Below, in pieces: positions 1 through 13,011 of a DNA stretch of 64,000 bases; position 1 is the stretch's first letter, and every line of letters starts with the position of its first letter. Below the pieces are notes generated by a model. The model was not told where the DNA came from and did no database searches. It worked only from the letters and a program-made list of their open reading frames with translations. The translations under genes were made by a program, and so were the position numbers. The DNA comes from Flagellimonas lutaonensis (lineage in GTDB: Bacteria > Bacteroidota > Bacteroidia > Flavobacteriales > Flavobacteriaceae): positions 1,058,501-1,122,500 of the forward strand of contig NZ_CP011071.1 in the NCBI RefSeq assembly GCF_000963865.1, in the 5' to 3' direction.

Positions 1-323
1 GGGCGATGACCCCACAACAGGTTTTCGGCAATTGGTTGGCCACTTTTTTGATGCGATTGTTCTTTGCTGCAAAATACACCGACCTGGGGCCCTTTAGGGC
101 CATCAAGTACAAAAAGCTCAAAGAACTGCAGATGGAGGACAAAACGTACGGTTGGACTGTGGAAATGCAGTTGAAGGCCTTGCGTAAAAAACTGACATAC
201 AAAGAGGTACCCGTACGCTATAAAAAAAGAATTGGCGTTTCTAAGGTATCTGGTACCGTAAAAGGTACTATATTTGCAGGCGTAAAAATTTTGGGTTGGA
301 TTTTTAAATACAGTATAAGATAA
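1..323 (+). CDS. Glycosyltransferase family 2, C-terminal fragment
   Basis: The gene is cut by the left edge; the open frame runs in from the edge and the first ATG at 6 is probably internal. About 105 residues remain. They look like the C-terminal part of a polyprenol-phosphate-type GT2 glycosyltransferase: an amphipathic LMRLFF segment, DLGPFRAI, then GWTVEMQLKAL and a basic PVRYKKRIGVSK region, which is the usual end of dolichyl-phosphate mannosyltransferase-like enzymes. The catalytic DxD part lies outside the window. It stops 2 bases before the next gene, so the three genes at the left end are very likely one operon for making or transferring a lipid-linked sugar. The family is fairly sure; donor and acceptor are unknown. 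Confidence 0.72.
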   Translation, partial: AMTPQQVFGNWLATFLMRLFFAAKYTDLGPFRAIKYKKLKELQMEDKTYGWTVEMQLKALRKKLTYKEVPVRYKKRIGVSKVSGTVKGTIFAGVKILGWIFKYSIR

Positions 324-325
324 TC

Positions 326-1810
326 ATGGCACTCACTTTAACTTACATCATTATTGCTATTTACAGCATCGCGTTGATGTTGATTTTCTTCTACAGTTTG
401 GCCCAGCTCAACTTGCTCATCAATTATCTTAGCTACAAAAAGCGCAACGACGAGGCCCCGAAATTCAACCTTATGGATCCAAGGGAAATACCCTATGTGA
501 CCATTCAATTGCCCATTTATAATGAGGAATATGTGGTAGAGCGATTGCTCGATAACATTTCAAAAATAGAATACCCAAAAAGCAAACTGGAGATTCAGGT
601 GCTCGATGACTCTACCGATGATTCAGTTTTGGAGACGGCAAAGAAAATTGAAGAACTTCAAAAACAAGGGCTCGACATAAAGCACATTCGCCGCGAAAAC
701 CGTCAAGGTTTCAAGGCCGGTGCTTTAAAAGAAGGGCTTGCCATCGCAAAAGGCGACTTTATTGCCATTTTCGATGCCGATTTCATGCCAGAGAGCGATT
801 GGCTCAAAAAGACCGTGCCTTATTTCAAGGATGAGGAAATCGGGGTGGTTCAGACCCGTTGGGGGCATATCAACCGTGATTATTCCACCCTTACAAAAAT
901 CCAGGCCTTTGCCTTGGATGCCCATTTTACATTGGAACAGGTCGGAAGAAACTCAAAGGGCCACTTCATCAACTTCAACGGTACCGCCGGTATTTGGCGT
1001 AAACAATGTATCATCGATGCAGGTAACTGGGAAGGTGACACCCTCACCGAAGACCTCGATTTGAGCTATCGTGCCCAGTTGAAGGACTGGAAATTTAAAT
1101 ACCTGGAGGATGTAGAGACCCCCGCTGAGCTGCCCGTGGTCATGAGTGCCGCCCGCTCTCAGCAATTCCGATGGAACAAAGGAGGTGCCGAAAATTTCAG
1201 GAAGACGGTCTGGAGCGTTATTACCGCTAAAAATCTTGATTTCAAGACAAAGTTTCATGGGGTAATGCACCTTTTGAACAGTTCAATGTTCTTGTGTGTG
1301 TTCTTGGTGTCTGTACTGAGCATCCCCATGCTGTATATAAAGAACTCCTATGGCCACCTTGCTTGGGTTTTTGAGGTTACCAGTTTCTTTATCGTCAGTA
1401 CCATTATTCTGTTTTTCTGCTACTGGTTTACCTACAAGAGTATGCAGGGAGGTGGTTTTGACAAGTTTGTAGACTATATAAAGCTGTTCTTCACGTTTTT
1501 CTCTGTGGCTCTGGGACTGTCGTTGCACAATTCAATCGCCGTACTGGAAGGCCACTTGGGCAAGCGAAGTGAATTTGTCAGAACCCCGAAATTTAACATC
1601 AACAGCCTCAGCGACACATGGAAGGGCAACAAATACATTACCAACAAACTCTCACCGAACATGTTGGTAGAGTTCGGGCTTATGCTTTACTTCCTTTTTG
1701 GAATGTACAGTGCCGTACCATTGAATGATTTTGGTCTTTTTCCCTTCCATCTGATGTTGTTCTTGGGCTTCGGTTTTGTATTCTTCAAATCGTTGACGGC
1801 CAAGGCGTAA
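326..1810 (+). CDS. Processive-type membrane GT2 glycosyltransferase (cellulose synthase-like)
   Basis: A 494-residue membrane glycosyltransferase. An N-terminal membrane helix (about 5-30) is followed by a GT-A catalytic domain with the expected acidic motifs: DD at 94-95, DAD at 150-152, TED at 241-243 and the QQFRW signature at 279-283. This D,D,D,QxxRW set is typical of BcsA/hyaluronan-synthase-like processive enzymes. At least four more membrane segments follow from about residue 315 to the end. It starts 2 bases after the preceding GT2 fragment and ends 3 bases before the next gene, so the genes are co-transcribed. No PilZ domain is visible, so it is not a complete cellulose synthase. 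The likely role is glycan or glycolipid assembly at the inner membrane; the product is unknown. Confidence 0.85.
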   Translation: MALTLTYIIIAIYSIALMLIFFYSLAQLNLLINYLSYKKRNDEAPKFNLMDPREIPYVTIQLPIYNEEYVVERLLDNISKIEYPKSKLEIQVLDDSTDDSVLETAKKIEELQKQGLDIKHIRRENRQGFKAGALKEGLAIAKGDFIAIFDADFMPESDWLKKTVPYFKDEEIGVVQTRWGHINRDYSTLTKIQAFALDAHFTLEQVGRNSKGHFINFNGTAGIWRKQCIIDAGNWEGDTLTEDLDLSYRAQLKDWKFKYLEDVETPAELPVVMSAARSQQFRWNKGGAENFRKTVWSVITAKNLDFKTKFHGVMHLLNSSMFLCVFLVSVLSIPMLYIKNSYGHLAWVFEVTSFFIVSTIILFFCYWFTYKSMQGGGFDKFVDYIKLFFTFFSVALGLSLHNSIAVLEGHLGKRSEFVRTPKFNINSLSDTWKGNKYITNKLSPNMLVEFGLMLYFLFGMYSAVPLNDFGLFPFHLMLFLGFGFVFFKSLTAKA

Positions 1811-1813
1811 CAT

Positions 1814-3178
1814 ATGCTTTCTTATTGGAAACTACACAGAATACCCATCCTGCTAGCGCTGGGAAGTGTGTTGTTTTATTGGGTCTTTGCCTACAACCTA
1901 GTACGTGAGGACAGTATAAAATTGTTCTCTCTTTTCGGTGCACTTTTCTTTTTCTATTTCAAATTGATCCAGTTTGAAAAATGGAACCTGAGGTTTATGG
2001 TTGTCTGCGGTGTACTCTTCAGATTGGTGTTTCTTTTGGCCGAGCCCAATCTTTCGCAAGATTTCTATCGGTTCATATGGGATGGTGAACTGATCAATAA
2101 CGGAATCAATCCGTACCTACATACTCCTGACGAGCTGATTCAGAATTCGGCATTCAAAATTCAGCATTCAGAATTGTTGCATCAAGGCATGGGTGCATTG
2201 AGTGCAAGTCATTTCAGCAACTATCCGCCCTTGAACCAATTGTTCTTTGCCATATCCACTTTTTTGGGCGGTGGGAGTGTTTTAGGCTCCATTATAGCCA
2301 TGCGGCTGAGTATTATAATTACCGATATCGGCATTTTCTATTTTGCCAGAAAACTGCTCAGAAAACTGAATATGTCGACCCATTTGGCTTTTTGGTATTT
2401 TTTGAACCCCTTGGTCATCATCGAGTTGACGGGCAACCTTCATTTTGAGGGGGTCATGATTTTCTTTTTTGTCTGGGCCATGTACCTGTTGTCAATCAAC
2501 AAATGGTGGCTTGCCGCGCCCATTTATGCGATGGCCATCATGCTGAAATTGGTGCCCTTGCTATTTCTACCCTTTTTCCTCCCTTTCTTGGGATTCAAAA
2601 AGAGTATACTTTTTTATATCCTTACAGGAATTGCCTGTGGCGTTTTTCTCTTACCGTTTTATTCCCCCGTTTTTATAGATAACTATGGTGACACAATAAA
2701 GCTGTGGTTTTCGAACTTTGAGTTCAATGCAGGCATCTACAATGCGGTCAAGCATAGTGCCGTGAACCATTATGGAGCCAAGCCTTGGGAATTGATAAAA
2801 GATTACGGAAGCCTTGTGCCACTTTTGGTGGTATTGGCGGTTCTGTTGCTGACCATCTTCAACAATAACAACAAACTTGAAGGCGTATTGAAATCAATGT
2901 TATCGGTTCTGGTACTGTATTATTTTCTGTCGACAACGGTACACCCCTGGTACATTATCTTTCCGCTGTTTTTGACGATTTTCACCGATTACCGTTTTGC
3001 GGTGGTCTGGTCGGCCATGATAATTTTGAGTTATTTCGCCTATTCAAATCCCGTCTTTGAAGAGAACCTTTGGCTCATCTTCGTTGAATATTTTGTGGTT
3101 TTTGGCTTCTTTATCTACGAAATCTTTAAAATTGAAAACCTGAAACGGCTATTTCAACAAAAATCGGAAGTCAAATAG
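1814..3178 (+). CDS. Multi-pass membrane mannosyltransferase-like protein
   Basis: A 454-residue protein with about ten hydrophobic segments. Its early loop DFYRFIWDG (residues 83-91), followed by NGINPY, matches the luminal acidic motif of GT-C glycosyltransferases that use polyprenyl-phosphate sugars (GT87/PMT-like families). It is third in a tight glycosylation operon and begins 3 bases after the upstream gene. Known family members move mannose or another hexose from a lipid-phosphate donor to an acceptor outside the inner membrane; the first gene of this operon may supply that donor (inference). An AT-rich repeat-like stretch at 2138-2176 is translated in frame as residues 109-121, which may be an insertion. 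The GT-C fold is fairly sure; the exact sugar is not. Confidence 0.7.
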   Translation: MLSYWKLHRIPILLALGSVLFYWVFAYNLVREDSIKLFSLFGALFFFYFKLIQFEKWNLRFMVVCGVLFRLVFLLAEPNLSQDFYRFIWDGELINNGINPYLHTPDELIQNSAFKIQHSELLHQGMGALSASHFSNYPPLNQLFFAISTFLGGGSVLGSIIAMRLSIIITDIGIFYFARKLLRKLNMSTHLAFWYFLNPLVIIELTGNLHFEGVMIFFFVWAMYLLSINKWWLAAPIYAMAIMLKLVPLLFLPFFLPFLGFKKSILFYILTGIACGVFLLPFYSPVFIDNYGDTIKLWFSNFEFNAGIYNAVKHSAVNHYGAKPWELIKDYGSLVPLLVVLAVLLLTIFNNNNKLEGVLKSMLSVLVLYYFLSTTVHPWYIIFPLFLTIFTDYRFAVVWSAMIILSYFAYSNPVFEENLWLIFVEYFVVFGFFIYEIFKIENLKRLFQQKSEVK

Positions 3179-3197
3179 GTCAGTTCTGCATAATTTG

Positions 3198-3205
3198 TAC
3201 ATTTA
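3198..3205 (+). promoter_or_regulatory. Possible -7 box of the arginine operon
   Basis: TACATTTA differs by one base from the Bacteroidota -7 consensus TAnnTTTG and lies just after the stop of the glycosyltransferase operon. No clear -33 TTG stands at the usual distance. If it is used, transcription would begin about at the ATG of the small arginine-rich frame at 3213, making that frame nearly leaderless. Confidence 0.4.
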
Positions 3206-3212
3206 CCCCATA

Positions 3213-3293
3213 ATGAACGAACAGCAAGACATACTTTCTTTGATGGGCACCTTCGCCCCAGTACGCCAGTTCGCTCCACGCCGTCGCCCGTAA
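3213..3293 (+). CDS. Putative arginine-rich leader peptide
   Basis: A 26-codon open frame (ATG 3213, TAA 3291) stands directly upstream of the arginine biosynthesis operon. Its last nine residues read RQFAPRRRP, with four arginines and three consecutive arginine codons (CGC CGT CGC at 3279-3287) shortly before the stop. That is the layout expected of an attenuator leader peptide for an arginine operon. A GTAA-loop hairpin (3285-3298) includes the stop codon, and a second hairpin lies at 3312-3333. The stretch is clearly more GC-rich than its surroundings. No Shine-Dalgarno is seen, which is normal here. It could instead be a decayed repeat or chance frame; conservation in related genomes would decide. 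This is inference from position and codon content. Confidence 0.45.
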   Translation: MNEQQDILSLMGTFAPVRQFAPRRRP

Positions 3294-3355
3294 GGGTGTG
3301 CTATATCTTTTGGGAATAGGTGAGTCCATTCCCGTAAACTCCAAAAAATCTTTTT
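3285..3355 (+). promoter_or_regulatory. Candidate attenuator hairpins before the arginine operon
   Basis: Two local stems follow the arginine codons. CGCCC (3285-3289) pairs with GGGTG (3294-3298) around a GTAA loop that contains the leader stop. Further on, GGGAAT (3312-3317) pairs with ATTCCC (3328-3333), extended by GG/CC past a bulged A around the loop TGAGT. A run of five T lies at 3351-3355, about 17 bases after the second stem, so it is not a textbook intrinsic terminator. A ribosome paused on the arginine codons would melt the first stem. Mutual exclusion of the two stems is not obvious by eye; folding is needed. Confidence 0.35.
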
Positions 3356-3377
3356 CAATCCAATAAAAACATCAGCA

Positions 3378-4037
3378 ATGGATATTGTTGTTGCCAACGA
3401 GTCACATTTTAAATACGCCCAAATAATCAGCGATACCATTTCAGAATCGGCCAAGGTTCGGGGTACAGGTATTGCCCAACGATCGCCCGAATACATCATT
3501 AAACGGTTACAGAACGGCAATGCCGTCATCGCCTTGGACGGTGACAAATTTGCCGGGTTCTGTTACATCGAGGTATGGGGGAACAAAGATTTTGTAGCAA
3601 ATTCTGGCCTGATCGTGCACCCCGACTACCGGGGCCAAGGATTGGCCAAAAAAATAAAAAAACGAATTTTTGAGCTTTCAAGGGAAAAATTCCCGGAGGC
3701 AAAAATATTTGGCATCACCACTGGCCTGGCGGTCATGAAGATGAACTATGAACTGGGGTACAAACCTGTTACCTTTTCAGAATTGACCGATGACCCCGAT
3801 TTTTGGAAAGGATGCCAGACCTGCAAAAATTTTGACATCCTTACCCGAACCGATCAAAAGATGTGCCTTTGTACCGGTATGCTGTATGACCCAATGGCAA
3901 AGAACAGCCATCCCCAAGCGGAAAAAATAAACAGAAAAACTTTTCAGCGATTGAAAAGCATCAAGGAAAGTCTTTTCCTAAAAAAGAAAAAGGTCTCCCC
4001 TGACCCTTCCAAAGGAAGGAAATTACCCAAAGGGTGA
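3378..4037 (+). CDS. GNAT acyltransferase, likely glutamate N-acyltransferase of arginine synthesis
   Basis: A 219-residue GNAT-fold protein and first gene of the arginine operon. The acetyl-CoA pyrophosphate-loop signature is visible as HPDYRGQGLAKKI (residues about 81-93). No argA or argJ is seen elsewhere in the window, so this is the natural candidate for making N-acetyl- or N-succinylglutamate, the first step of the pathway (inference from position). A cysteine-rich stretch (CQTCKNF ... MCLCTG) follows the GNAT core. The last 14 residues, VSPDPSKGRKLPKG, are encoded by an interspersed repeat and are probably a recent addition without function. Start chosen at 3378, after an A-rich stretch; upstream lie a putative leader peptide and hairpins. 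Confidence 0.72.
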   Translation: MDIVVANESHFKYAQIISDTISESAKVRGTGIAQRSPEYIIKRLQNGNAVIALDGDKFAGFCYIEVWGNKDFVANSGLIVHPDYRGQGLAKKIKKRIFELSREKFPEAKIFGITTGLAVMKMNYELGYKPVTFSELTDDPDFWKGCQTCKNFDILTRTDQKMCLCTGMLYDPMAKNSHPQAEKINRKTFQRLKSIKESLFLKKKKVSPDPSKGRKLPKG

Positions 4038-4184
4038 TATTTGGATTATTACCTTGAGGGAACTTTAGGGATGTCAAAAATATTAAAAACAATAAAGGGC
4101 TCTCCCTTTGGAAAAAGGGAGATGTCCGACAAATGAGGACAGAGGGATTGAAACAAACAGATTCCCGTTTTCACGGGAATGACA
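3993..4184. repeat. Interspersed palindromic repeats between GNAT gene and argG
   Basis: The gap and the end of the upstream gene hold three repeat-like pieces. The first is a CTCCCCTGACCCTTCC/GGAAGG unit at about 3993-4035 that is translated as the GNAT tail. The second is an inverted unit CTCCCTTTGG...AAAGGGAG at about 4100-4122. The third is ATTCCCG (4161-4167) with CGGGAAT (4174-4180), ending in GACAAAA just before the argG start. Similar pieces recur in the other gaps of this operon. Confidence 0.65.
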
Positions 4185-4197
4185 AAATGAAATGATT

Positions 4198-5388
4198 ATG
4201 AAAAAACTGGTTTTAGCTTACAGCGGCGGACTCGACACCTCATACTGTGCCAAATACCTTTCGAAAGAGAAAGGGTTTGAGGTGCATGCCGTAAGTGTCA
4301 ACACAGGCGGATTTTCAAAGGAAGAAATCAAAAGCATCGAAGAAAAGGCGTTGGCCTTGGGGGCTGCAAGCTACACTTCCATTGACGCGGTGCAACGTTT
4401 CTATGATAAGGTGGTAAAATACCTCATCTTCGGCAATGTGTTACGTAACAATACCTACCCCCTTTCGGTCAGTGCCGAAAGAATCATACAGGCGGTAGAG
4501 ATCGTGAACCACGCCAAAAAAATTGGTGCCAGCCATATTGCCCATGGCAGTACGGGTGCAGGCAACGACCAAGTACGGTTTGACATGATCTTTCAGATAT
4601 TGGCGCCCGAAATTGAAATAATTACCCCCATTCGTGACCACAAACTGGCCAGGGAAGAAGAAATTGCCTACTTACAACAAAACGGCGTCGATTATTCATG
4701 GGAAAAGGCCAAATACTCTATCAACAAAGGGCTATGGGGCACCTCCGTTGGGGGCGATGAGACATTGACCTCACATTTGCCCCTACCCGAGTCAGCATAT
4801 CCCAGACAATTGGAGGCCAAACTGCCCAAAGAGGTCAGGCTCACCTTTGAAAAGGGTGAGTTGGTGGCTTTGGATGGTAATGCTAATTCACCCGTGAACA
4901 ATATCGAAAAATTGAACGATATCGCCTCAAAATATGCCATTGGCCGGGATATTCATGTGGGCGATACCATTATCGGCATCAAGGGTAGGGTCGGTTTTGA
5001 AGCGGCCGCTCCGCTTATCATTATCAAGGCGCATCATTTGTTGGAAAAACACACCTTGAGCAAATGGCAGCAATACCAAAAAGAGCAATTGGGCAACTTC
5101 TACGGAATGTTGTTGCACGAAGGCAATTATTTGGATGCTGTGATGCGAAACATCGAAACATTTCTAGAAGACACCCAAAAGAATGTCAGTGGCGATGTCT
5201 TCGTGACCCTACATCCCTATCGTTTTGAACTGAACGGCGTAACCTCTGAACATGATTTGATGAACGCTTCCTTCGGAAGCTATGGCGAAATGAACAAGGG
5301 TTGGACAGCTGACGATGCCAAAGGCTTTATCAAGATTTTGAGCAATCCAGGGAAGATTTCTAATTACGTTTATCAGAAAGAACAATAA
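4198..5388 (+). CDS. argG: Argininosuccinate synthase
   Basis: Joins citrulline and aspartate at the expense of ATP to give argininosuccinate in the cytoplasm. The ATP-pyrophosphatase P-loop YSGGLDTSY stands near the N-terminus, and HGSTGAGNDQVRFD in the middle is the citrulline/aspartate-binding signature of the family. The length, about 396 residues, is normal. The frame is also open from an ATG at 4192 (MIMKKLV), but the ATG at 4198 giving MKKLVLAYSGG fits the usual short N-terminus. It is second in the operon, which places the late step (ArgG) ahead of the early steps and ArgH last. The 5' gap is repeat-derived, and its GACAAAATGA end sits immediately before the start codon. Confidence 0.96.
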   Translation: MKKLVLAYSGGLDTSYCAKYLSKEKGFEVHAVSVNTGGFSKEEIKSIEEKALALGAASYTSIDAVQRFYDKVVKYLIFGNVLRNNTYPLSVSAERIIQAVEIVNHAKKIGASHIAHGSTGAGNDQVRFDMIFQILAPEIEIITPIRDHKLAREEEIAYLQQNGVDYSWEKAKYSINKGLWGTSVGGDETLTSHLPLPESAYPRQLEAKLPKEVRLTFEKGELVALDGNANSPVNNIEKLNDIASKYAIGRDIHVGDTIIGIKGRVGFEAAAPLIIIKAHHLLEKHTLSKWQQYQKEQLGNFYGMLLHEGNYLDAVMRNIETFLEDTQKNVSGDVFVTLHPYRFELNGVTSEHDLMNASFGSYGEMNKGWTADDAKGFIKILSNPGKISNYVYQKEQ

Positions 5389-5402
5389 TATCATATCAAA
5401 CT

Positions 5403-5485
5403 GTCATGCTGAGCGCAGTCGAAGTACAGTCGAAGCCAAAGCGAGATATCTAGATTTCTCACTGTCTTGGCAGATTCGAAATGAC
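5403..5485. repeat. GTCAT...ATGAC palindromic element between argG and argC
   Basis: The element opens with GTCATGCTGAGCGCAGTCGA and closes with ATTCGAAATGAC. Inside are a second copy of CAGTCGAAG and an AGATTTCTC motif. It fills nearly the whole gap, and the closing ATGAC lies 15 bases before the argC start. Confidence 0.7.
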
Positions 5486-5499
5486 AAAAACAAAAACGA

Positions 5500-6474
5500 A
5501 TGATCAAAGTAGGCATTATTGGCGGTTCAGGCTACACAGGAGGCGAGTTGATACGGCTTTTGCTGAACCACCCAAAAGTGGAAATCGATTTTGTGTACAG
5601 CACCACCAAAGCTGGCAAACCGATTTCTTCTGCACATGGCGATTTATTGGGGCAGACCGATTTACAGTTTTCAGGGGAAGTCAATCCAGGGGTTGACGTG
5701 GTATTTCTGTGTTTGGGGCATGGTAATTCTGCACAGTTTCTAAAAGACAATGATTTTTCAGAAATTACCAAAATCATCGACCTCAGCAATGATTTTAGGC
5801 TACAAAAGGATGCTGGGTTCGGAGGGCGAAAATTTGTATACGGACTTCCTGAGCTGAACAAAGAGAAAATCACCAATGCGAATGCCATTGCCAATCCGGG
5901 TTGTTTTGCCACCGCCATTGAACTGGCCCTATTACCTCTGGCAAAGGCCGGATTGCTCCAAAACGAAGTACATATCAATGCCATAACAGGTAGTACCGGT
6001 GCGGGCATCAAACCCTCTGAAACAGGCCATTTCAGCTGGCGAAACAACAATGTGAGTTGGTACAAACCCTTTACCCACCAGCACTTGGGCGAGATTGGTG
6101 AAAGCTTGGCCTCCTTTAAAAATGAAGTCGGACAACTATACTTTCTTCCCAATCGGGGAAACTTTGCCCGTGGCATTTTTGCAACGGCCTATACCAAGTT
6201 TGGGGGAAGCCAGGCAGAAGCCTTTGAACTTTACAACGATTTTTATGCAGATGCCTTGTTTACCCATATTTCGGAAATGCCCATCCATTTAAAACAAGTG
6301 GTCAATACCAATAACTGTCACATCCATATACACAAACATGACAATGTACTATTAATCACTTCGGCCACAGACAACTTGTTGAAGGGAGCATCGGGACAGG
6401 CGGTACAGAACATGAACCTGATGTTCGGGTTTGAAGAACGAGAAGGGTTGAAATTAAAAGGAAGTATTTATTAA
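5500..6474 (+). CDS. argC: N-acyl-gamma-glutamyl-phosphate reductase
   Basis: NADPH-dependent reduction of N-acylglutamyl-phosphate to the semialdehyde, third step of the acylated branch. The nucleotide-binding loop GIIGGSGYTGGELIRLL is at the N-terminus, and the catalytic cysteine lies in NPGCFATA in the middle of the protein. The 324-residue length fits the shorter Bacteroidota-type ArgC. Start chosen at 5500 (MIKVGIIGG), which brings the Rossmann strand to the N-terminus; an overlapping frame beginning at 5481 starts inside the repeat element and is a shadow. It lies between argG and proC with repeat elements on both sides. Confidence 0.95.
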   Translation: MIKVGIIGGSGYTGGELIRLLLNHPKVEIDFVYSTTKAGKPISSAHGDLLGQTDLQFSGEVNPGVDVVFLCLGHGNSAQFLKDNDFSEITKIIDLSNDFRLQKDAGFGGRKFVYGLPELNKEKITNANAIANPGCFATAIELALLPLAKAGLLQNEVHINAITGSTGAGIKPSETGHFSWRNNNVSWYKPFTHQHLGEIGESLASFKNEVGQLYFLPNRGNFARGIFATAYTKFGGSQAEAFELYNDFYADALFTHISEMPIHLKQVVNTNNCHIHIHKHDNVLLITSATDNLLKGASGQAVQNMNLMFGFEEREGLKLKGSIY

Positions 6475-6478
6475 CCAT

Positions 6479-6554
6479 TAGGTCGAGCTGTCACATCGAT
6501 CGGAGGCGAGATGCGAGACCTGTTTAATTAGATTCCTGCTTTCGCAGGAATGAC
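6479..6554. repeat. Palindromic repeats between argC and proC
   Basis: An AGGTCGAG...GCGAGACCT unit (about 6480-6521) is followed by the hairpin ATTCCTGC (6532-6539)/GCAGGAAT (6544-6551), ending in GACAAAA just before proC. The same two-part layout occurs between argF' and argB. Confidence 0.68.
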
Positions 6555-6568
6555 AAAAAAAAAGAAAC

Positions 6569-7363
6569 ATGAAACTAGCAATTATAGGAGCGGGAAATCT
6601 CGGGCTGGCCATCGCCAAGGGCATTTTGCACACCAACGGGGCCACCACCATGTACCTCACCAAGCGCAACGTAGCCGAAATCAAGGATTTTGAGAAATAC
6701 GGTAACGTAACGGTAACCACTGATAATGCCGAGGCGGTCAAAAATTCTGACATTTTAATTTTTGCCGTGCAGCCAGGCCACTTTGAAGCCATTCTATATG
6801 ATGTCAAAGACCTATTGACCGAAAAACACGTGGTCATCAGTACCATCACGGGCTTCAGCATCGAAAAGATGGAGTCCATTATCGGCGCAGACAAGTACAT
6901 CATACGAAGCATGCCCAACACGGCCATCTCCGTGGGCAAGTCGATGACCTGTCTGTGCAGCAACGACTTGGGCAAAAAGCGCATCGATTTGGCCAAGGCC
7001 ATTTTTAACCGTATGGGGCCCTCCATGGAAATTCCAGAAACGCAAATGCAGGCGGCCACCGTTATCTGCGCCAGTGGCATTGCCTTTTGGATGCGCCTGA
7101 TCCGCGCAACCACCCAAGGCGCCATTCAATTGGGCTTTGATGCAAAAGAAGCGCAAGAATTGGCCATGCATACCTGTAACGGGGCAGCCAGCCTGCTGAT
7201 TGAATCAGGCAGCCACCCAGAAGAAGAAATTGATAGGGTAACAACACCTAAAGGCTGTACCATTGAAGGTTTGAACGAAATGGAGCACCAAGGGTTGAGC
7301 TCTTCATTGATACGGGGCATTGTGGCATCGTTTCAAAAGATTAGTGAAATACGAAAAGGCTAA
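6569..7363 (+). CDS. proC: Pyrroline-5-carboxylate reductase
   Basis: Reduces pyrroline-5-carboxylate to proline with NAD(P)H. The N-terminal Rossmann loop MKLAIIGAGNLGLAIAKG is clear, and the C-terminal dimerisation region with VTTPKGCTIEGLNEME matches the conserved V-T-P-G-G-T-type block of ProC, here with KGCT. The length of 264 residues is normal. Its place inside the arginine operon links proline and arginine synthesis, which share glutamate-semialdehyde chemistry; whether it also serves an arginine-to-proline route is not visible. The gaps on both sides are filled by repeats. The start at 6569 follows an A-rich stretch. Confidence 0.92.
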   Translation: MKLAIIGAGNLGLAIAKGILHTNGATTMYLTKRNVAEIKDFEKYGNVTVTTDNAEAVKNSDILIFAVQPGHFEAILYDVKDLLTEKHVVISTITGFSIEKMESIIGADKYIIRSMPNTAISVGKSMTCLCSNDLGKKRIDLAKAIFNRMGPSMEIPETQMQAATVICASGIAFWMRLIRATTQGAIQLGFDAKEAQELAMHTCNGAASLLIESGSHPEEEIDRVTTPKGCTIEGLNEMEHQGLSSSLIRGIVASFQKISEIRKG

Positions 7364-7367
7364 GGCC

Positions 7368-7536
7368 TCCCCTGGCCCCTCCCCTTCCTGTATCGTGCGA
7401 AGTCACGGTAAAATAAGGGGAGGTGGATTCCGCTGTCATACTGAGCACAGTCGAAGTAAAAGCGGAAGACAGAGGGGTCTGAAAAATTAATAGATTCCCG
7501 GCCCTATCTGCCAACAGGCAGGTTCGCGGGAATGAC
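7368..7536. repeat. Compound repeat block between proC and argD
   Basis: Two elements lie side by side. CCTCCCCTGGCCCCTCCCC (about 7368) is matched by AGGGGAGG near 7416-7423. Then GTCATACTGAGCACAGTCGA (7435) opens a composite that ends with ATTCCCG (7494-7500) ... CGCGGGAATGAC (7525-7536). This is the longest spacer of the operon (184 bases) and is almost wholly repeat. Confidence 0.68.
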
Positions 7537-7547
7537 AAAATGTAAAA

Positions 7548-8681
7548 ATGAAACTATTCGACGTATATCCGCTCTATGAGGTGACCCTGGTTTCCGCCAA
7601 GGGCATTGAGGTCATTGATGACAAGGGCAACATCTATTTGGATTTCTATGGAGGCCATGCCGTGATTTCCATCGGGCATTCACATCCACATTATGTAAAA
7701 CGGCTGAAAGACCAACTGGATAAAATAGCTTTTTACAGCAACTCGGTTCAAAATCCGCTGCAAAGGGAACTTGCCCAGAAGTTGGGCGAGCAATCGGGGT
7801 GTGAAGACTATGCGTTCTTTATGTGCAATTCTGGGGCCGAAGCGAACGAAAATGCATTGAAAATGGCTTCCTTCCATACGGGAAAGGCCAAGGTCATCGC
7901 CTTCAAGAACAGTTTTCACGGCCGTACTTCAGCAGCCGTGGCTGCCACAGATAATCCTAAAATCAATGCCCCGATCAATCAACAACAAAAAGTGGATTTT
8001 TTGCCTTTGAACAATTTCGAAGCTTTTGAAAAAACCATCGCCAAAGGCGACCATTGCGCCGTAATCTTGGAAGCCATCCAAGGGGTAGGCGGTTTGGATG
8101 AACCCACCACGGAATTCTACCAATTCATTGCCGAAAAGTGCAAGAAAAATGGGATTGTTTTAATTGCTGACGAGGTACAGTCTGGCTTTGGAAGAAGCGG
8201 CAAATTCTTCGCCTTTCAGCATCATGGGGTGACACCAGACATCATCTCAACCGCCAAAGGCATGGGCAATGGGTTTCCAGTTGGCGGAGTGCTTATACAT
8301 GAAAAATTCAAAGCTTCCTACGGATTGTTGGGCACCACTTTCGGCGGCAACCATTTGGCCTGTGCCGCCACTTTGGCCGTGCTGGAAGTGTTGCAAAACG
8401 AAAATCTAATTGAAAATGCCACTGCGCTCGGAACCTATTACAAAGAGAAAGCCCAAGAAATTCAACAAGTGAAACAGGTAAAAGGCCGGGGACTGATGTT
8501 GGGATTGGAGTTTGAACACGAGGTCAGCGAGCTCCGAAAAAAACTGATTTATAACCAGCATATGTTCACAGGTGGCTCGGCCAATAAAAATTTGTTGCGG
8601 TTTTTACCGGCATTGAACATAACAAAAGAACATATCGATATATTTTTTGAAAGATTGAAAAAAGAATTACTAACAACATAG
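7548..8681 (+). CDS. argD: N-acylornithine aminotransferase
   Basis: A pyridoxal-phosphate class III aminotransferase that converts the N-acylglutamate semialdehyde to N-acylornithine with glutamate as amino donor. Visible motifs are NSGAEANENALKMA for phosphate binding, ADEVQSGFGRSG with the cofactor-contacting aspartate, and STAKGMGNGFPVGG with the catalytic lysine. The 377-residue length fits ArgD. Its position between argC and the transcarbamylase makes the arginine role more likely than a general ornithine or GABA aminotransferase. The start at 7548 is 12 bases after a repeat end. The in-frame stop TAG lies right before the next repeat element. Confidence 0.92.
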   Translation: MKLFDVYPLYEVTLVSAKGIEVIDDKGNIYLDFYGGHAVISIGHSHPHYVKRLKDQLDKIAFYSNSVQNPLQRELAQKLGEQSGCEDYAFFMCNSGAEANENALKMASFHTGKAKVIAFKNSFHGRTSAAVAATDNPKINAPINQQQKVDFLPLNNFEAFEKTIAKGDHCAVILEAIQGVGGLDEPTTEFYQFIAEKCKKNGIVLIADEVQSGFGRSGKFFAFQHHGVTPDIISTAKGMGNGFPVGGVLIHEKFKASYGLLGTTFGGNHLACAATLAVLEVLQNENLIENATALGTYYKEKAQEIQQVKQVKGRGLMLGLEFEHEVSELRKKLIYNQHMFTGGSANKNLLRFLPALNITKEHIDIFFERLKKELLTT

Positions 8682-8682
8682 T

Positions 8683-8756
8683 GTCATTTCGAACGTATGT
8701 GAGAAATCTCAAGATCAATAAATAGATTTCTCCTCACTTCGTTCTGTCGAAATGAC
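8683..8756. repeat. Palindromic element with perfect 10-base termini between argD and argF'
   Basis: The ends GTCATTTCGA (8683-8692) and TCGAAATGAC (8747-8756) are perfect inverted repeats. Inside, GAGAAATCTC and AGATTTCTC are also inversely related. The element is 74 bases, starts 1 base after the argD stop and ends 9 bases before the next start, so it forms essentially the whole spacer. Confidence 0.75.
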
Positions 8757-8765
8757 TGAAAAAAT

Positions 8766-9707
8766 ATGAAACACTATCTATCCATACACGACATCGGCGA
8801 CCTGCAAACTACGGTCAACGAAGCCATTGCATTGAAAAAGAATCCGTATCAATTTGAACAATTGGGCCATCAAAAAACCATTTGCCTGTTGTTTTTCAAC
8901 AATAGCCTGCGCACCCGTTTGAGCACACAAAAGGCGGCCATGAACTTAGGTATGGAGGTCATGGTCATGAATTTTGGAAGTGAAGGTTGGCAATTGGAGT
9001 TTTCAGACGGTGCAGTAATGGATGGTGGCAAGGCCGAGCATATCAAGGAAGCCGCCCAAGTGGTGTCACAGTACTGTGACATTGTGGCCATACGTGCCTT
9101 TGCAGGGCTTTTGGACAAAAAAAAGGACGAGGCTGAAGAAGTGCTGAACGGATTCAAAAAATATGCTTCAATTCCCGTGGTGAACATGGAAAGCTCAGTG
9201 GCCCATCCGCTGCAGGCCTTGGCCGATACCATTACCATTGAAGAGCATAGAATAATTGAACGGCCCAAAGTGGTGCTGTCATGGGCACCCCATCCCAAAC
9301 CCCTGCCGCATGCAGTGCCAAATTCATTTGTGAACATGATGAGATTGCAAGAGGCCGAGTTCGTCATCACGCATCCGAAAGGGTACGAACTGAACCCTGA
9401 AGTAACAAAAGGCTGTAAAATTGTGCACAACCAACGCCAAGCCCTGGAAAATGCGAACTTTGTCTATGTCAAAAACTGGAGCAGCTATTCGGAGTACGGA
9501 AAAGTGCTGCACACAGATAAAAACTGGATGATGACGCAAGAAAAACTGGGCGATGCAAAATTCATGCACTGCCTACCCGTACGACGAAACGTGGTGGTCG
9601 AAGATGCCGTGTTGGACAGTCTGCAAAGCCTTGTCATCGAACAGGCCAATAACAGAACCTATGCTGCGCAAGTGGTTTTGAAAAGGATATTGGAGAATAT
9701 AAAATAA
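8766..9707 (+). CDS. argF': N-succinyl/N-acetylornithine carbamoyltransferase
   Basis: Transfers carbamoyl phosphate to an N-acylated ornithine to give N-acylcitrulline. The carbamoyl-phosphate motif appears as NNSLRTRLST (residues 45-54) instead of the STRTR of ordinary ornithine transcarbamylase, and the C-terminal HCLPVRRN motif is the N-acyl type. At residue 90 stands an alanine, in GGKAEHIKEA. From memory, the Bacteroides succinylornithine enzyme has Pro90 here and the Xanthomonas acetylornithine enzyme has Glu92, and replacing that Glu by Ala gives succinylornithine activity; this favours the succinyl substrate (inference, unaligned). The 313-residue length is normal. It sits after argD, as pathway order predicts. 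Confidence 0.88.
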   Translation: MKHYLSIHDIGDLQTTVNEAIALKKNPYQFEQLGHQKTICLLFFNNSLRTRLSTQKAAMNLGMEVMVMNFGSEGWQLEFSDGAVMDGGKAEHIKEAAQVVSQYCDIVAIRAFAGLLDKKKDEAEEVLNGFKKYASIPVVNMESSVAHPLQALADTITIEEHRIIERPKVVLSWAPHPKPLPHAVPNSFVNMMRLQEAEFVITHPKGYELNPEVTKGCKIVHNQRQALENANFVYVKNWSSYSEYGKVLHTDKNWMMTQEKLGDAKFMHCLPVRRNVVVEDAVLDSLQSLVIEQANNRTYAAQVVLKRILENIK

Positions 9708-9711
9708 AAAT

Positions 9712-9795
9712 GTCAGGTCGAGCGCAGTCGAGACCTAAATAAAGGGATTCCCGCCGAAGTCCATCCTGAGCGAAGACGAAGGGCGGGAATGACAA
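9712..9795. repeat. Palindromic repeats between argF' and argB
   Basis: AGGTCGAGCGCAGTCGAGACC (from 9715) is followed by ATTCCCGCC (9747-9755) paired with GGCGGGAAT (9782-9790) and the terminal GAC. Between the stem arms lies CATCCTGAGCGAAGACGAAG. The ATG in the terminal AATGAC is in frame with argB. Confidence 0.7.
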
Positions 9796-9797
9796 AA

Positions 9798-10574
9798 ATG
9801 GAAAAACTGAGTATCATAAAAATAGGAGGCAATATCATCGAAGATGAGACCCAGCTTCTGCAATTTCTTAAGCTGTTCGCTGCAATGGATAATCCAAAGA
9901 TATTGGTCCACGGTGGGGGCAAAAAAGCTTCTGAAATTTCCAAAAAACTGGGTATCGAACCCAAAATGCACAAAGGTCGCCGAATCACCGATGAAACTGC
10001 CCTTGATGTGGCCCTAATGGTCTATGGCGGGCTCGCCAATAAAAAAATTGTGGCGCGATTACAATCTTTGGGCTGCAACGCTCTGGGTATGAGCGGTGCA
10101 GACGGCAACACCATCAAAGCGCATAAACGACCTGTAAAGGAGATGGATTACGGCTTTGCTGGTGATGTGGACGGCATTAATGCCGATTTGATAACCAATC
10201 TTTTACATCTTGGGATCTCGCCCATTTTCTGTGCATTGACCCACGACCAAGAAGGGCAGTTGTTGAACACCAATGCCGACACCATTGCTTCCGAATTGGC
10301 GGTGGGATTGAGCGATGATTTTGAGGTAACATTGTATTACTGTTTTGAAATGAACGGGGTGCTGCGTGATGTTTCCGATAAGGGTTCGGTAATCAAAAAA
10401 ATCGATTCCACATCCTATCAAAAATTGATGTCCGATGGCATTATCAGTAATGGCATGCTCCCAAAACTGCACAACTGCTTCCACGCCCTGCAACATGGGG
10501 TGAACGAAGTAAGAATCGGTAATTTAGCCCTGTTTGAAAAAGGGAACCCCAATTATACAACGCTCACGTTATGA
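9798..10574 (+). CDS. argB: N-acylglutamate kinase
   Basis: Phosphorylates N-acylglutamate, second step of the acylated branch. An amino-acid kinase fold is seen: the glycine-rich KIGGNIIEDE near the N-terminus, LVHGGGKKASEI with the nucleotide loop, and a GMSGADGNTIKA block. The frame is open from an ATG at 9789 (MTKMEK), but those first codons are the end of a palindromic repeat (GGAATGACAAAA), so 9798 is the more natural start. The length, 258 residues from 9798, is normal. The stop overlaps the start of the next gene (ATGA at 10571-10574), the only junction of this operon without spacer. Confidence 0.93.
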   Translation: MEKLSIIKIGGNIIEDETQLLQFLKLFAAMDNPKILVHGGGKKASEISKKLGIEPKMHKGRRITDETALDVALMVYGGLANKKIVARLQSLGCNALGMSGADGNTIKAHKRPVKEMDYGFAGDVDGINADLITNLLHLGISPIFCALTHDQEGQLLNTNADTIASELAVGLSDDFEVTLYYCFEMNGVLRDVSDKGSVIKKIDSTSYQKLMSDGIISNGMLPKLHNCFHALQHGVNEVRIGNLALFEKGNPNYTTLTL

Positions 10575-11647
10575 CGCTAGATAAAGACACCTTGGCAAAA
10601 GAAGCCCTAGAATTGTTGAAAGAGCTGATATCCATTCCATCCTTTTCCGAAGAGGAAGACGGGACGGCAACCGCCATTGACAATTGGTTGGAAAAGTTTG
10701 GAGTTGATACCAAAAGGCAATACAACAACATTTATGCGTTCAACAAATACTATGATGAAAGCAAGCCCAATCTGCTGCTGAACTCACACCACGACACAGT
10801 GAAACCCAATTCCGCTTATACCAAAGACCCGTTCAATCCGCATATCGAGGATGGAAAATTGTACGGGCTGGGCAGCAACGACGCGGGTGGGGCTCTGGTT
10901 TCGTTGTTGGCGACTTTTGTCCACTTCTACGAGCGTCAAGACCTCAGCCATAATATCATCATGAGCGCCACGGCCGAAGAAGAGGATGCTGGTGACAAGA
11001 GTATTTCTGCTTTGCTGCCCATTCTTCCTGAAATAGATGTGGCCATTGTGGGCGAGCCCACCCAAATGCAATTGGCCATTGCTGAAAAGGGATTGGTAGT
11101 CTTTGAGGGAAAAGTGGAGGGCACGCCTTCGCATGCGGCACACCCGAATGACAACAATGCCATTTACAACACCATAGAGGTTTTGCAATGGTTCAAGAAT
11201 TACAGGTTTGAAAAAGTTTCGGAGGTCCTCGGGCCAGTGAAAATGACGGTCACCCAAATCAATGCGGGCAGCCAGCACAATGTGGTGCCAGGGCACGTTG
11301 ACCTTGTTATTGACACCCGTGTGAACGATTGTTATACCAACGAAGAGGTTTATGAAATCTTGAAAAAGGAAGCCCCTTGCAAACTGACGCCGCGTTCATT
11401 GAATTTGAGTAGTTCTTCGATTTCAATCAACCACCCTTTGGTGCAATCGGGCATTGCGCTGGGCAGGGAAACCTACGGTTCGCCAACATTATCCGATCAA
11501 GCAGAATTAAGCTGCCAATCGTTGAAATTGGGCCCTGGTGACAGCACGCGGTCGCACTCCGCCGATGAGTTTATTTATGTAGATGAGGTAATCGAGGGCG
11601 TTGGGCTGTATATTGATATTTTGGAGGGATTCTTATCAAAGAAATGA
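10571..11647 (+). CDS. argE: N-acyl-citrulline/ornithine deacylase (M20 peptidase family)
   Basis: An M20/ArgE-like zinc hydrolase that removes the acyl group from the pathway intermediate. In this lineage the natural substrate should be N-acylcitrulline, because the operon carries a transcarbamylase for acylated ornithine (inference). Metal-site motifs are visible: NSHHDTV around residues 72-78, LGSNDAGG with the bridging aspartate around 97-104, and TAEEEDAG with the catalytic and metal-binding glutamates around 137-144. The length of 358 residues is normal. It is translationally coupled to argB by the ATGA overlap and followed by a 77-base spacer before argH. Confidence 0.88.
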   Translation: MTLDKDTLAKEALELLKELISIPSFSEEEDGTATAIDNWLEKFGVDTKRQYNNIYAFNKYYDESKPNLLLNSHHDTVKPNSAYTKDPFNPHIEDGKLYGLGSNDAGGALVSLLATFVHFYERQDLSHNIIMSATAEEEDAGDKSISALLPILPEIDVAIVGEPTQMQLAIAEKGLVVFEGKVEGTPSHAAHPNDNNAIYNTIEVLQWFKNYRFEKVSEVLGPVKMTVTQINAGSQHNVVPGHVDLVIDTRVNDCYTNEEVYEILKKEAPCKLTPRSLNLSSSSISINHPLVQSGIALGRETYGSPTLSDQAELSCQSLKLGPGDSTRSHSADEFIYVDEVIEGVGLYIDILEGFLSKK

Positions 11648-11724
11648 GATATTGGACGTGAGGTTCTAGATTCCTCGTAATCAGTTCTTGCGTCTCACAT
11701 CGAAAATCAAACATCTAAAAAACA

Positions 11725-13011
11725 ATGAAACTCTGGGACAAAGGCTTTAGCACCGATAAAAAAATAGACCAATTCACCGTGGGCAATGACCGTGAGCTTG
11801 ATCTCGTTTTGGCAAAATACGATGTCATCGCCTCAAAGGCCCACGCGAAGATGCTGGGCAAGATGGGATTGATTTCCAAGGATGAATCCGATGCGTTGTT
11901 AAAGGAATTGGAGACCATTGGAAAATCCATCGCAAAAGGCAAGTTCACCATCGAGGATGATTTTGAGGACATGCACTCAAAAATCGAATTTCTGCTCACC
12001 AAGAGATTGGGCGATACGGGAAAGAAAATCCATACCGCACGTTCACGAAACGACCAAGTGTTGGTGGCCATGCAATTGTACCTCAAGGATGAACTGACCG
12101 AAATCAAGGCACAGGTCAAAACATTGTTTGATTTACTGCTGAAACTGGCCAAACAACACCAAAAGGTGCTGCTGCCAGGTTATACACATTTACAGCTAGC
12201 CATGCCCTCTTCGTTCGGACTCTGGTTTTCGGCCTATGCCGAGAGTCTGGTCGATGATCTCTACTTCGTACAAGCCGCCTACAAGGTTGCGGACCAAAAT
12301 CCGTTGGGGAGCGCCGCAGGGTATGGAAGCTCCTTCCCCATCGACCGAAGCTTCACCACCAAAGAAATGGGGTTCGAGACCCTCAAATACAATGTGGTCG
12401 CCGCCCAAATGGGCCGTGGAAAAGTCGAGAAGGCCACCGCTTTCGGTATTTCAAGCATCGCGGCCACGCTCTCAAAACTGGCGATGGACATCACGCTCTA
12501 CATGAGCCAGAACTTTGATTTTATCTCTTTCCCAAATGAACTGACCACGGGCAGCAGCATCATGCCCCATAAAAAGAATCCCGATGTGTTTGAATTGATC
12601 CGCGCCAAGTGCAACAAGATACAGGCCGTGCCCAATCAACTCACACTTATCACCAACAATCTGCCGAGCGGCTACCACCGGGACCTTCAGCTGGTCAAGG
12701 AAATCATCGTGCCTGCCTTGCAAGACATAAAGGCCTGTCTCGAGATGATGACCTTCAGTTTAAAGGAAATCAAGGTCAACAAAGACATTCTTGACGACCC
12801 AAAGTACGACTACCTCTTCAGTGTCGATACGCTGAACGAGATGGTCAAAAGCGGTATGCCCTTTCGTGATGCCTACAAGACCATGGGACAGGCCATTGAA
12901 AACGGCAATTTTAAACCGAAAAAGGACATCAAACATACCCATAAGGGCAGTTTAGGGAATTTGTGTTTGGATGAGATCAAAGCAAAAATGCAGAAGGCTT
13001 TAAAACCCTAA
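11725..13011 (+). CDS. argH: Argininosuccinate lyase
   Basis: Splits argininosuccinate to arginine and fumarate, the final step. The fumarase/aspartase superfamily signature TTGSSIMPHKKNPDVFELIR lies around residues 273-292, and HTARSRNDQV near residue 100 is the second conserved region; HLQ in PGYTHLQLAMP completes the active site. The length of 428 residues is slightly short but normal for the Bacteroidota form. It is the last gene of the operon. The spacer before it does not carry the clear GTCAT palindrome of the other gaps, only a TCTCACATC-type AT-rich tail. After the stop another repeat-like inverted stretch begins. Confidence 0.95.
   Translation: MKLWDKGFSTDKKIDQFTVGNDRELDLVLAKYDVIASKAHAKMLGKMGLISKDESDALLKELETIGKSIAKGKFTIEDDFEDMHSKIEFLLTKRLGDTGKKIHTARSRNDQVLVAMQLYLKDELTEIKAQVKTLFDLLLKLAKQHQKVLLPGYTHLQLAMPSSFGLWFSAYAESLVDDLYFVQAAYKVADQNPLGSAAGYGSSFPIDRSFTTKEMGFETLKYNVVAAQMGRGKVEKATAFGISSIAATLSKLAMDITLYMSQNFDFISFPNELTTGSSIMPHKKNPDVFELIRAKCNKIQAVPNQLTLITNNLPSGYHRDLQLVKEIIVPALQDIKACLEMMTFSLKEIKVNKDILDDPKYDYLFSVDTLNEMVKSGMPFRDAYKTMGQAIENGNFKPKKDIKHTHKGSLGNLCLDEIKAKMQKALKP

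Follow-up and report, generated by a model that had tools for sequence, protein, structure and literature searches.

Ribosome-mediated attenuators of the his and trp type combine a short ORF rich in codons for the product amino acid, placed before the cognate operon, with a promoter just upstream and hairpins past the stop codon. In the Pseudomonas carAB leader, leader-peptide control is tied to arginine supply, at a gene and in a phylum that differ from those considered here, and the fungal arginine attenuator peptide, TnaC, and SpeFL are short upstream peptides in which arrest occurs near the stop codon and depends on conserved nascent-chain residues. In Salmonella orf34-speF, pausing at Arg codons works not through a terminator but through Rho and RNase G, and the position of the stop codon is critical (PMC6386406). 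A general mention of leader-peptide attenuation at amino-acid operons exists for F. psychrophilum (PMC9723704), and the Bacteroid-trp RNA motif (RF01692) is likewise a leader of an amino-acid operon in Bacteroidetes; its model gave no match to the window (the whole 64,000-nucleotide stretch of the Flagellimonas lutaonensis genome analyzed here) or to the related leaders scanned. No description of an arginine leader in Bacteroidota was found in the openly accessible literature (an earlier description in a subscription paper is possible), in line with the initial annotation, which knew of none in Flavobacteriia. Nor was a description found there of the control of arginine synthesis in Bacteroidota without ArgR, for which the leader reported below offers a candidate.

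The initial annotation had placed a 26-codon frame with three consecutive Arg codons 84 nt before the first arginine gene, and this arrangement was present as described (Table 1), the distance being counted from the leader stop (3293) to the GNAT ATG (3378). Upstream of the leader, a GT87-like gene ends at 3178. As in the his and trp attenuators, codons for the product amino acid stand in a row before the cognate operon, with a promoter just upstream and hairpins past the stop; unlike them, the arginine leader of the window's clade has neither a U-run terminator nor a visible terminator/antiterminator pair, its stop codon lies inside a covarying hairpin (H1), and a second hairpin (H2) carries an invariant loop. 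Like orf34-speF, it places Arg codons back to back in a small ORF ahead of the regulated gene, a similarity of architecture; orf34 controls ornithine decarboxylase, not arginine synthesis, the peptide, RNA, and phylum differ, and the involvement of Rho and RNase G is that described for Salmonella (PMC6386406). Rfam, with its leader, T-box, and riboswitch families, gave no match in window positions 1-12000 at E values up to 5, and only unrelated sub-threshold matches in 16 related loci. The leader looks like an apparently undescribed, unusually built sensor with which this marine bacterium would match its arginine production to supply.

Table 1. Coordinates of the arginine leader and of the genes that follow it in the window.
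Feature	Position	Strand	Details
-7 promoter box	3198-3205	+	TACATTTA (Bacteroidota consensus TAnnTTTG); predicted start ~3210, 3 nt upstream of leader ATG; inferred
Arginine leader peptide ORF	3213-3293	+	MNEQQDILSLMGTFAPVRQFAPRRRP; 26 codons; ATG 3213, TAA 3291-3293; tail RRRP-stop
Run of three Arg codons, proposed pause site	3279-3287	+	CGC CGT CGC
Hairpin H1, in-frame stop codon in loop	3285-3298	+	CGCCC-GUAA-GGGUG; -7.9 kcal/mol; compensatory changes
Hairpin H2	3312-3333	+	GGGAAU-A-GG-UGAGU-CC-AUUCCC; bulged A, GG:CC, UGAGU pentaloop, no U-run after; -10.2 kcal/mol; concerted stem changes
G-poor unstructured spacer before GNAT	3334-3377	+	low G content
GNAT acetyltransferase, first gene of arginine cluster	3378-4037	+	Pfam PF00583, E 9.5e-8
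argG, argC, proC, argD, argF' (acetylornithine-type carbamoyltransferase), argB, argE, argH	4192-13011	+	ORFs in this order

Within the cluster, argG was assigned by PF00764, argF' and argE by NCBIfam, and argC, proC, argD, argB, and argH from the translated sequence. The GNAT matched NCBIfam PRK07757 weakly, far below the cut-off, and its PDB matches were generic GNATs; judged by position, it probably serves the cluster as N-acetylglutamate synthase. The gap between GNAT and argG (4038-4191) is rich in hairpins with several short inverted repeats and resembles dispersed intergenic repeats.

A total of 80 GNAT loci from named genomes were compared, of which 79 were complete and one (L003) was truncated inside the ORF. 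A short ORF with an Arg-rich tail, mostly RRRP-stop or RRRRP-stop, was present in 79/79 complete loci and ended 87-98 nt before GNAT, while the truncated locus retained H1 and H2. The promoter box had the form TACWTTTR, which fits the Bacteroidota -7 consensus, and was located 5-9 nt upstream of the leader ATG in 80/80 homologues. The Bacteroidota -7 box occupies -12 to -5 relative to the start (PMC9723704), and the transcript should, from the position of the box, begin some 3 nt ahead of that codon in the leader, the ATG. The leader mRNA is probably almost leaderless, because the box stands at this distance from the ATG in all 80 sequences. The promoter box that the initial annotation had placed before the frame was thereby borne out, with the predicted start upstream of the frame rather than downstream of 3293. 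Every complete relative had the frame, the run of Arg codons, the promoter box, and the two hairpins, and a chance origin of the leader was rejected.

A covariance model of the leader (R1) found one copy per genome, and all convincing matches were within Flavobacteriaceae; matches at E values of 0.002-0.01 in other families were judged to be due to chance, two (L103 and L105) after reading and the rest by score. Multiple copies in the present genome were excluded, a single good match being found. A broader model (R2) identified the leader in 180/299 Flavobacteriaceae genomes and 148/236 genera, with exactly one copy in each, and in the divergent set the gene after the leader was GNAT in nearly all loci where it was read. 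Three Flavobacteriaceae loci of one genus (L119-L121, genus g2) had neither the leader nor argR, which counts against the reading preferred below. The leader is a compact, easily tested element that occurs in most of the Flavobacteriaceae genera sampled.

At the end of the leader, Arg occupied positions -4, -3, and -2 in 77/80, 78/80, and 80/80 homologues, respectively. The first two codons of the run drifted between CGT and CGC among relatives, and the third, which belongs to the H1 stem there, was CGC throughout the core set. Among the 122 codons with a single change in 27 disjoint pairs of relatives, 64 had changed synonymously, against 34.9 expected (p 2.8e-8), and because of this excess the leader ORF is judged to be under coding selection. 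Such a signal would also be expected of a functional small protein acting in trans, with the hairpins serving GNAT translation; the N-terminal part of the peptide was nonetheless poorly conserved, and conservation was concentrated at the Arg codons and the RNA elements, which makes a trans-acting protein very improbable. Readthrough or frameshifting beyond the leader stop was discarded, since the length of the spacer varies by one base and the frame is lost. The alignment of relatives that the initial annotation had proposed as a check contained both the small frame and the Arg run, and its arginine leader peptide was upheld by the conserved frame, the Arg codons with synonymous drift, the covarying stems, and the conserved upstream promoter.

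Both stems that had been noted downstream of the Arg codons were confirmed, both covaried, and both were found in all complete relatives. In the DNA, two blocks, CGYCGCCCGTAAGGGTG and GGAAATAGGTGAGTCCATTTCC, recurred in relatives with a spacer of nearly constant length between them. The distance from H1 to H2 is 13-15 nt. Among divergent relatives, the H1 stem was CGCAC/GUGCG in L268, L273, and, in extended form, L285, and CGCCC/GGGCG in L102 and L275; its loop drifted among GUAA, UUAA, UUAG, and CUAG, mostly with retention of an in-frame UAA or UAG. Across 28 distinct H2 sequences, the core GG-UGWGU-CC and a bulge of A or UA were kept while the stem varied, the loop being UGAGU or UGUGU only, and several pair types occurred at four or five stem positions; one of the changes, in the inner GG:CC, was compensatory. 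The core alignment had more paired cells, more cells with both sides changed, and a higher covariation score than shuffles, but the number of such pairs was not higher (2 observed, with 124/500 shuffles equally high). The folding energy of the whole leader was unexceptional (z 0.06), and the case for structure is one of conservation and covariation, not of energy. Three further candidates were rejected: a pseudoknot between H1 CGCC and H2 GGUG, as L117 has a GA:UC pair in H2 with no matching change in H1; docking of the H1 GUAA tetraloop into H2, as the loops vary (UUAA, CUAG, GUUU); and a Shine-Dalgarno mimic (AGGUGA) in the H2 loop, which neither L117 nor other families retain.

The C-terminal RRRP-stop was nearly invariant within the core clade, as might be expected if free arginine arrested the nascent chain at this end, much as arrest occurs in TnaC, SpeFL, or the fungal arginine attenuator peptide. 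The terminal residue nonetheless follows the H1 stem: in L268 and L273, the change from CGCCC to CGCAC turns the Pro codon CCG into ACG (Thr). Because Pro becomes Thr when the stem changes, the terminal Pro seems to be driven by the RNA, with selection on the stop position and stem rather than on Pro. The leader thereby differs from the arrest peptides, whose C-terminal residues are conserved; other relatives end in RRPLGA-stop or RPFGYDLH-stop, and the remainder of the peptide is highly variable. Arrest by arginine is accordingly regarded as improbable, with odds of about the lowest rank but one among the alternatives weighed here.

The same genome contains his and trp leaders that are, by their layout, textbook attenuators. 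The his leader (MRNKNTHHHSVTCAQAR; L292:1170-1223, + strand) is followed downstream of its stop by a strong hairpin and U-run (ACCCGTTTGAGCAATCGAACGGGTTTTTTT; -16.5 kcal/mol) and then by hisG, and the trp leader (VKQTTVHTWWWTTLRQMS; L293, minus strand, reverse-complement 1251-1307), which has a GTG start, is followed by a strong hairpin and U-run (AAAAAGGCCTGTCGTCACGACAGGCCTTTTT; -21.0 kcal/mol) and then by trpE. The near-leaderless promoter layout is common to all three leaders: the arg, his, and trp ORFs (window 3198-3215, L292, and L293) each begin 5-8 nt after a TAnnTTTR-like box, and the mRNAs from which leader peptides are translated in this genome may be almost leaderless.

No + strand terminator was found in the arginine leader, and no intrinsic terminator lies between its ORF and the first gene. 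Directly after H2 there is no U-run in the window, and within the window's clade 70/80 leaders have no more than two T among the first 10 nt past H2. A tract rich in pyrimidines, in some cases U5-U7, does come after H2 in 48 more divergent relatives, and because of it a weak terminator may be ancestral. Folds and covarying pairs revealed H1 and H2 only; no antiterminator pairing was visible in a non-exhaustive search, and the candidate CGCC x GGUG was absent in L117. The two weak points that the initial annotation had conceded, an offset T-run and the absence of an obvious mutually exclusive pairing, are therefore real features of the locus, the second within the limits of that search. Classical transcription attenuation, in which H2 would be a weak intrinsic terminator set by ribosome position as in the his and trp attenuators, would account for the pyrimidine tract of the divergent relatives and would be in keeping with the canonical attenuators of the same genome. 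The scarcity of T after H2, the lack of a visible antiterminator, and an invariant loop that a plain terminator would not need all speak against it, and it is considered unlikely, though less so than any other single alternative. The switch of stems into a terminator by a pausing ribosome, as first proposed, found no support in the window's clade, where H2 lacks a U-run and a non-exhaustive search turned up no alternative pairing, whereas the his and trp leaders have real terminators. The sequences instead suggest that this genome uses leaders of two kinds side by side, his and trp attenuators of the textbook form and a terminator-less arginine leader with an invariant hairpin loop, so that a new output of leader-peptide control can be put directly to the test.

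The reading preferred here, with a probability of roughly two in three, is that the arginine leader acts in cis and senses translation through ribosome occupancy of its Arg codons. Transcription would begin a few nucleotides before the 26-codon ORF, so that the ribosome would be close behind RNA polymerase. When charged Arg-tRNA is scarce, the ribosome would pause at the last Arg codons, where it covers the 5' side of the H1 stem, leaving H1 unfolded and the operon on; when arginine is plentiful, it would terminate in the H1 loop and depart, H1 would fold 13-15 nt before H2, and expression of GNAT and the arg genes would drop. The parts of this model that are read from the sequences are the ORF, the Arg codons, the promoter position, the stop within H1, the covarying H1 and H2, the invariant H2 loop, and the place before the cluster. 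Pausing, the direction of control, and an output via Rho, RNA cleavage, or an H2-bound factor rather than a U-run terminator are what we infer from them. The covering and release of H1 fits the leader anatomy; a ribosome on the Arg codons or at the stop would not reach as far as the start of H2, and the model gives no account of why the H2 loop is invariant. In the core clade, the G content of the 52 nt before GNAT was 7.8%, against 15.8% before other genes, and such a spacer would be suited to Rho; the effect was absent in a class-wide comparison, which gives this no support.

Outside the family, GNAT was found in 99/295 Bacteroidia genomes, and an Arg-rich leader ORF preceded it in 53/89 upstream regions read, against 7.6 expected from shuffles, with tails such as SPSRRRPYMPRA, RRNRFTYRV, and RRFRRPSGV before the stop. 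Compared with shuffles, these leaders had more structure around the stop (mean z -1.05; control stretches -0.65) and just after it (mean z -1.53; control stretches -0.56). A different conserved hairpin loop of the H2 type, CC-UNYGY-GG, occurred in 16/89 of these Bacteroidia loci, against 0.46 expected. Together with the near invariance of the Flavobacteriaceae H2 loop, it would be compatible with H1 and H2 forming a binding site for arginine or a regulatory protein, the peptide merely tuning ribosome access. This is improbable, if marginally less so than nascent-chain arrest, given the conservation of both Arg codons and frame and the lack of a match to any Rfam family. The loci with the CC-UNYGY-GG loop upstream of GNAT, all outside Flavobacteriaceae, are L127, L128-L130, L132, L136, L146, L162, L164, L176-L178, L181, L184, L188, and L193.

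ArgR (PF02863) was found in 12/295 Bacteroidia genomes and was absent from the present genome, which sets the cluster apart from an ArgR-regulated operon and favors the ribosome-occupancy reading. An extension of the ribosome-occupancy reading can be put forward tentatively, at about half the odds given to that reading itself: in much of Bacteroidia without ArgR, an Arg leader would report the ribosome stop inside H1 through the sequence-specific loop of H2 and a putative factor, with no intrinsic terminator. Leader and adjacent argR were negatively associated (Fisher p 0.016, with loci counted as independent despite their kinship). In seven loci (L156, L157, L160, L171, L180, L195, and L123), argR stood immediately before GNAT with no convincing arginine leader; the lone automatic leader call among them, in L157, was a 13-residue ORF in the gap.
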